From contig JAEUUJ010000049.1 of NCBI GenBank assembly GCA_016786495.1, positions 62,001 to 126,000 on the forward strand: a stretch of DNA of 64,000 bases, in the 5' to 3' direction. Position 1 is the stretch's first letter. Each line of letters begins with the position of its first letter. The position numbers and the translations under genes were made by a program. The notes beneath the pieces were generated by a model. It was not told the DNA's origin and searched no databases. It saw nothing but the letters and a program-made list of their open reading frames with translations. The DNA comes from Cyclobacteriaceae bacterium. GTDB lineage: Bacteria > Bacteroidota > Bacteroidia > Cytophagales > Cyclobacteriaceae. Below, piece by piece: positions 47,874 to 48,206 of this stretch.

Positions 47874-48016
47874 GCACATAAAACGTCACCCGGGATCGAA
47901 AATTTTTCCACCAAAATAAACCAATTGCGGCACTTGAGCGTTTGAAAATCGGCTGCGGTCGTGGCCGGCAAGGTTAACGATTCATAAGTTACTTGAACAC
48001 AGGCCTTTGCTTATGT

Positions 48017-48206
48017 AACACTAAAAGAAAGGAGGTACAAATGTCTAGTCCCAAGCAAATTTTATCAAAATCAACAGCACTAACCAAATCCACAGGTGTG
48101 GAGAGTTGAGAAGTTGATTGTACCTCGTGCGATTTTTAGTGTTTGATAAAATTGAAATGAGGATTTTTGAAAGTATCCGGCCAGTATCTAGGCCGGATAT
48201 TTTTTT
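48017..48206 (+). ncRNA. Candidate structured RNA with alternative folds
   Basis: There is no convincing gene in 47880-48204; instead three perfect inverted repeats lie on the plus strand. Repeat 1: AACACTAAAA (48017-48026) with TTTTAGTGTT (48134-48143). Repeat 2: GAGGTACAA (48032-48040) with TTGTACCTC (48118-48126). Repeat 3: AATTTTATCAAA (48058-48069) with TTTGATAAAATT (48142-48153). Repeats 1 and 2 nest into one long hairpin with an internal loop; repeat 3 shares two bases with repeat 1 and crosses repeat 2, so the folds compete. A small CCAC/GTGG hairpin (48090-48101) lies in the apical part. A rho-independent terminator closes the unit. Both neighbouring genes are on the minus strand, so this would be a free-standing RNA of about 190 bases. 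No promoter is obvious and the RNA family is not recognised. Confidence 0.5.
48174..48206 (+). terminator. Rho-independent terminator of the candidate RNA
   Basis: TATCCGGCC (48174-48182) pairs perfectly with GGCCGGATA (48191-48199) around AGTATCTA, followed by seven T on the plus strand. On the minus strand no T-run follows, so it serves plus-strand transcription. Confidence 0.88.

Follow-up and report, generated by a model that had tools for sequence, protein, structure and literature searches.

A conserved candidate small mRNA with an extended Shine-Dalgarno sequence and a long-range helix in Cytophagales

Passages of a study of Bacteroidia translation (PMC9976891) describe ribosomes whose anti-Shine-Dalgarno sequence is occluded by bS21, bS18 and bS6. 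According to the same passages, extended Shine-Dalgarno sequences (SDs) with pairing energies below −13 kcal/mol mark rpsU, the translation of rpsU rises on ribosomes lacking bS21, and rpsU with an extended SD occurs in ∼20% of Cytophagales, mainly Cyclobacteriaceae (section 33). We analysed a stretch of 64,000 nucleotides (nt) from a Cyclobacteriaceae bacterium (assembly GCA_016786495.1, contig JAEUUJ010000049.1, positions 62,001 to 126,000; ‘the window’), which carries a structured RNA element with a short open reading frame (ORF) behind an SD of this type, that is, one pairing with at least 9 nt of the 16S tail at below −13 kcal/mol. As in the rpsU mRNA described in those passages, the SD is complementary to a long stretch of the tail (9–13 base pairs (bp) in rpsU, 11 in the element), its predicted energy is lower than −13 kcal/mol, in a phylum where SDs are seldom used, and the RNA is predicted to be transcribed alone. 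The element differs in that it encodes a peptide of 18–23 amino acids and no ribosomal protein, rpsU lying elsewhere; in having a long-range structure that is conserved, with a competing SD-hiding fold in one clade; and in that it is found mostly where rpsU lacks the SD. We regard it as a new RNA/small-ORF family that would resemble rpsU mRNAs with an extended SD in the way it works but does not belong with them, as it encodes no bS21. A literature search over titles and abstract starts of openly licensed papers returned no description of it.

We lean towards the view that the element is a small mRNA, structured and free-standing, which is translated by ribosomes with an unoccluded 16S tail. 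Sequence comparison argues for a conserved, separately terminated gene that occurs once per genome, for an ORF of 18–23 codons behind an extended SD, for a long-range helix, P1, which is closed by a second helix, P0, and ties the ORF start to the 3′ end, and, in the window's clade, for a rival fold that pairs the leader and SD with a CCUC-containing strand. The ORF and the structure rest on this comparison, from which we infer transcription, translation, dependence on bS21 and an output.

The collection comprised 145 distinct sequences, 64 from titled records and 81 from other genomes, obtained with patterns in which most of the SD and the second codon, but not the stop position, were fixed; one of them (L251) stands ahead of an unrelated ORF and was probably matched by chance. 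Starting from the ATG or GTG 4–6 nt past GGAGG, the ORF ends after 18–23 codons in 145/145 sequences, as against 2/145 and 0/145 for the +1 and +2 frames. ATG is the start codon in 128 sequences and GTG in 17, and the stop codons are TAA (73), TAG (45) and TGA (27). The exact 11-nt complement of the 16S tail is present in 142/145, a count that is partly due to the construction of the search, and the SD:tail duplex was computed at −16.6 kcal/mol with the tail of relatives (G031, G103 and G325). The original prediction, made from the window alone, had set aside the AAGGAGG and ATG, which proved to be among the most conserved parts of the element. Since the SD and start are conserved and the frame is kept, the element would not be purely non-coding but would itself be a small mRNA; the proposal of a switch or regulatory RNA is therefore borne out in its competing folds, which are supported in the window's clade, but not as a purely non-coding RNA. 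The same 11-nt complement, for which pairing stays favourable after the opening cost, could also belong to an abundant decoy RNA that captures free 16S tails and whose translation is incidental. A decoy of this sort could do without a start codon, a stop codon and a fixed frame, yet all three are kept, and we consider it unlikely.

Constraint on the peptide was estimated by peptide group as the ratio of non-synonymous to synonymous differences (pN/pS) over codons 11 to the end. It is strong for the MSSSP/MSDSP peptides (g33-like; pN/pS 0.28, other frames 1.64 and 1.28) and for the Rufibacter type (0.00, 6 sequences), and moderate for the Pontibacter 23-mers (0.62). Judged by eye, the peptides are polar and without a membrane span, and two of them that were tested gave no match in NCBIfam.

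Within the window, the element occupies a gap of 325 bases between two minus-strand ORFs, one ending at 47879 and the other beginning at 48205. It contains perfect inverted repeats of 10 bp (AACACTAAAA at 48017-48026 with TTTTAGTGTT at 48134-48143), 9 bp (GAGGTACAA at 48032-48040 with TTGTACCTC at 48118-48126) and 12 bp (AATTTTATCAAA at 48058-48069 with TTTGATAAAATT at 48142-48153), and ends in a strong plus-strand terminator with arms at 48170-48182 and 48191-48203 followed by a T run. Repeats, their competition, terminator and gap were all as first predicted. The 12-bp and 10-bp repeats cross with a two-base overlap, so the two folds are mutually exclusive unless a pseudoknot forms. Positions 48017-48206 fold at −55.2 kcal/mol, compared with −35.7 ± 4.1 kcal/mol for 200 dinucleotide shuffles (z = −4.8; 0/200 as good), and the minimum free energy (MFE) and centroid structures correspond to the competing folds: the 12-bp helix forms in one of them and the 10- and 9-bp pair in the other. 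Because the element is conserved in other genomes, a chance origin is untenable.

A leader-peptide-like ORF followed by a terminator would also be expected of an attenuator in the leader of a downstream gene. However, the next ORF lies on the opposite strand in the window and in 17/20 loci of the MSSSP type (taking the longest ORF and using no gene caller), in agreement with the prediction that this is not the leader of an mRNA, and the co-directional loci (L004, L006, L012, L019, L026, L028 and L039) do not all share one gene. An attenuator is exceedingly improbable. Dual-function small RNAs, such as SgrS and RNAIII, are comparable as structured, terminated, free-standing RNAs that carry a small ORF; the element differs from them in that its ORF start sits inside the conserved helix.

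In P1, codons ∼6–10 pair with a strand just upstream of the terminator. P1 shows strong covariation: over 47 representatives, the native arms pair at −16.3 kcal/mol on average and swapped arms at −10.1 kcal/mol (z = −11.4). The arm analysis covered 143 rows, leaving out L251 and L216 (in L216 GGATT is present but was missed by the motif expression), and the 3′ arm of L007 was misassigned to a later GGAT. The swap test supports this helix across clades. Consensus folds of two alignments of family f13 genomes recover P1 together with hairpins within and behind the ORF; of their pairs, 24/53 and 9/54 are changed on both sides in one sequence or more. In P0, A[AG]TCC of codons 3-4 can pair with GGATT in 142/143 elements; P0 is less well supported than P1, as its motif was partly required in the collection and its variation is confined to A-U/G-U. 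The conserved AGGATT was also considered as a free seed, which was dropped since it is able to pair with codons 3-4.

The competing fold was examined in the 20 members of the window's clade. There, two partners compete for the 3′ strand TTTTAGTG: the leader CACTAAAA, which immediately precedes the SD, and a CACTA-like copy inside the ORF. Pairing with the first puts a CCUC strand on the SD, and pairing with the second lengthens P1. Swap tests over the 20 members gave z = −4.2 for leader plus SD, −3.4 for the leader alone and −7.8 for the extended P1, and the anti-SD motif CCT[CT] is present in the 3′ region of 20/20. For the window, the SD-hidden fold is the best at −59.3 kcal/mol, and forcing the SD open gives the P0/P1 fold at −55.1 kcal/mol. 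The ensemble cost of opening the SD is 5.5 kcal/mol in the window, with a median of 3.4 and a range of 0.8–10.8 kcal/mol over 52 elements. The mutually exclusive stems of a free-standing, terminated RNA, as originally proposed, are thus real, with both folds supported by the swap tests, but specific to this clade, P1 being the deep feature.

A further stem-loop is seen between the ORF and the P1 3′ arm in MSSSP-type elements of alignment A6 (e.g. L020, L024 and L030). In many of these its loop (CTGTACCCCAG) contains UACCCC, which is complementary to part of the SD, and a loop–SD contact is possible.

Type I toxin mRNAs such as hok and aapA have a long-range interaction between their 5′ and 3′ regions. 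The element is like them in its 5′–3′ helix, by which a small ORF is locked by its own 3′ end, in an SD that is hidden in one fold, and in having its own terminator. It differs in being a single-copy, widely conserved chromosomal gene, with one match per genome and a wide presence in some genera, and the window element gave no plasmid or phage match; the polar peptides, by eye without a membrane span, do not look toxin-like. We consider a toxin mRNA very unlikely.

Table 1. Coordinates of the predicted features of the element in the window (position 1 is the first nucleotide of the window)
Feature	Coordinates	Strand	Basis or remarks
Whole RNA element	48017..48206	+	predicted transcript of ~190 nt with a predicted 5′ end; fold z −4.8; homologues
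Promoter-like boxes, CATAAGTTACTTGA (47983-47996) and TTATGT (48011-48016)	47983..48016	+	putative function
Leader arm AACACTAAAA of the SD-hiding fold	48017..48026	+	pairs with 48134-48143; swap tests in 20-member clade
Extended SD AGAAAGGAGGT	48026..48036	+	11-nt complement of 16S tail ACCUCCUUUCU
22-codon ORF MSSPKQILSKSTALTKSTGVES plus stop	48041..48109	+	frame kept in 145/145 collected sequences
P0 5′ side AGTCC (codons 3-4)	48047..48051	+	pairs with GGATT 48161-48165; A6 consensus fold, window MFE
P1 5′ arm inside ORF	48058..48069	+	pairs with 48142-48153; native versus swapped z −11.4
CACTAA inside ORF, second copy of leader motif	48078..48083	+	can pair with TTAGTG 48136-48141, extending P1
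Small hairpin TCCAC-AGGT-GTGGA in ORF 3′ half	48089..48102	+	counterparts in alignments A5 and A6 with two-sided changes
Anti-SD arm TTGTACCTC	48118..48126	+	pairs with 48032-48040; CCT[CT] in 3′ region of 20/20 clade members
Contested 3′ strand TTTTAGTGTTTGATAAAATT	48134..48153	+	usable by either fold
Conserved AGGATT, 3′ side of P0	48160..48165	+	motif conservation, A6 consensus fold
Intrinsic terminator	48170..48206	+	hairpin and T run; same layout in most rows of alignments A4 and A5

The distribution of the element was examined by several searches. BLAST at an E-value of 0.001 gave matches in 9/59 relatives, two of the nine (the weak DNA matches L008 and L009) being short and without the SD/ORF layout and therefore rejected. 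The pattern AAAGGRGGTAC-N0-6-TGTCTAGT was found in 54/390 genomes of the order, once in each, with none for the reversed control. R1, a sequence-only model built on the 5′ block of the element, matched 90/390 genomes of the order, one match per genome at that sensitivity; 37 of the R1 matches, mostly weaker ones, were inspected in detail, the remainder not all being inspected, and three of the 37 (L150, L151 and L153) are not members. In a fourth of the 37 (L138, genome G115, 75% complete) the ORF start is kept and GGAGG is absent, possibly because the copy has decayed or the assembly is wrong at this point. Across a sample of the phylum, R1 matched 4/395 genomes, namely the window genome and three of genus g33, probably Hymenobacter, which holds most of the MSSSP-peptide matches. 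Within this sample, and as far as a sequence model can tell, the element thus appears confined to the order Cytophagales.

A scan of titled records, with a pattern that excludes the MSSSP type, gave 90 stretches, and among the 80 titles listed nearly all were Cytophagales. The genera by title were Pontibacter (g110), Rufibacter (g126), Adhaeribacter (g143), Chryseolinea, Ohtaekwangia, Chryseosolibacter, Nafulsella, Cesiribacter, Rhodocytophaga (g25), Marivirga and Anditalea, along with metagenome-assembled genomes, two of which, titled Bacteroides and Chitinophaga, carry elements resembling the Ohtaekwangia/Chryseolinea group.

A length near 190 nt, a long stem and a free-standing position would suit 6S RNA or another known housekeeping RNA of Cytophagales, and a comparison with 6S RNA had been suggested by the original prediction. 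Neither the window nor any of 12 homologous loci reached the gathering score of an Rfam family; below threshold there were only STnc240 (E = 0.39, terminator side), a snoRNA and sX5, none of them convincing, and for the window stretch no 6S RNA was listed at E-values up to 10. The conservation of an SD, a start codon and an ORF is also at odds with 6S RNA, and this identification can scarcely be right. Nor does a degraded mobile element, the other possibility raised at the outset, agree with one match per genome, an upstream neighbour that recurs in g33 and the lack of a plasmid or phage match for the window element. Four short-pattern matches in viral contigs fall at the start of one shared large ORF (548–565 amino acids in three contigs, 80 amino acids to the contig end in one), which we take to be a terminase; this is a different gene, and the matches were judged to be chance.

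The relation to rpsU was assessed by reading the rpsU leaders of 97 genomes, a strong SD being one of −11 kcal/mol or lower with the 11-nt tail. Fourteen leaders were judged by eye, as were five more unparsed ones (one strong, four not). Genomes counted as lacking the RNA (50) were those without a match by BLAST, pattern or R1. A strong rpsU SD is present in 2/47 RNA-bearing and 18/50 RNA-lacking genomes (Fisher p = 1e-4, uncorrected for phylogeny), and 15 of these 18 belong to the window's family, f1. The two RNA-bearing exceptions are Anditalea (−16.9 kcal/mol) and a Cesiribacteraceae isolate (−12.7 kcal/mol, for one of its two rpsU copies, the other copy not having been read). Left out of the comparison were G193 (family f13, no R1 match, possibly a missed member), G028 (wrong stretch), Nafulsella (unparsed), G820 (no rpsU found) and three records duplicating counted genomes. 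This inverse association is only suggestive.

Copy number of bS21 was also recorded. Two bS21 matches each were found in the RNA-bearing genomes G798, G800 and G815 (loci L170 of Cesiribacter, L175 of Nafulsella and L216 of Cesiribacteraceae YIM B00369), and one match in each of the other 26 of the 29 RNA-bearing genomes with a bS21 match. In YIM B00369, one of the two bS21 gene copies has a strong SD.

If the element is a small mRNA read by ribosomes with a free 16S tail, it might act as follows. At rest, the SD would be partly or wholly hidden and the ORF start locked by P0/P1. The trigger would be the appearance of 30S subunits with an unoccluded 16S tail, which in Bacteroidia would be those lacking bS21. 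Such a tail would pair over 11 bp with the SD, paying an opening cost of a few kcal/mol, and initiate; translation would then melt P0/P1 and release the 3′ strand. The output is the least certain step. It could be the peptide, in clades where this is conserved, or a refolded or ribosome-bound RNA that acts on ribosome pools or bS21 supply or sequesters free tails, an effect through bS21 supply being most tentatively placed in lineages whose rpsU lacks an extended SD, where the element possibly stands in for rpsU's own SD feedback. In its most specific form, the element would be a riboswitch-like RNA whose ligand is the free 16S 3′ tail: 30S subunits lacking bS21 would shift it from the SD-hidden to the P0/P1 fold and translate through it, thereby reporting or correcting bS21 supply where rpsU is without an extended SD. 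We regard this form as speculative and rather doubtful.

Several observations weigh against a small mRNA of this kind. The swap-test z values ignore kinship among the sequences. Outside the window's clade, no more than a minority of clades show the SD-hiding fold clearly; P1 prevails in many of the others, where the SD core finds only local partners. The 16S gene and tail of the window genome were not found with three patterns, and GAAAGGRGGT..RTG occurs once in that genome, at this RNA, and twice for the reversed control, so the count alone proves nothing. The rpsU association runs along clade lines. Both features are absent from many genomes (e.g. G001, G007, G016, G014 and G268, and 6/7 of the f11 genomes read), and Anditalea has both. 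For the Pontibacter 22-mers pN/pS is 0.85, not below the other frames (0.75 and 0.82), and for the MSSPK 22-mers it is 1.13, so that constraint on the amino acids is weak or absent and the ORF may matter more as a translated tract than for its product.

The last point bears on another reading, a structured regulatory RNA that senses translation: its ORF would be translated solely to make the RNA refold, and the peptide would be inert. RNA pairing constrains the first ten codons, and amino-acid constraint over the remainder is weak or lacking in these two types, although the frame and length of the ORF are kept nevertheless. The strong codon-level constraint in the MSSSP/MSDSP and Rufibacter types argues against such a sensor, which we find plausible but would rate below even. 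Our preferred reading remains a small mRNA translated by ribosomes whose 16S tail is unoccluded.

Upstream of the element, a TAAG..nTTG-like box lies 27-30 nt before ATGT in 17/48 representatives, across families (7/145 rows are without an ATGT-type anchor). The TAAG..nTTG and TTATGT boxes are unlike the usual Bacteroidota promoter, and the pair could point to a dedicated sigma factor.

In Bacteroidia, the use of very strong SDs has been worked out for the autoregulation of bS21; here, a conserved small gene has an equally strong SD, and it is present in many Cytophagales outside the ∼20% with an extended-SD rpsU. Its existence suggests that short ORFs could escape gene-based surveys of SDs. 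The family adds an RNA whose supported structure overlaps the coding region, and the element could readily serve to probe for ribosomes whose 16S tail is unoccluded.
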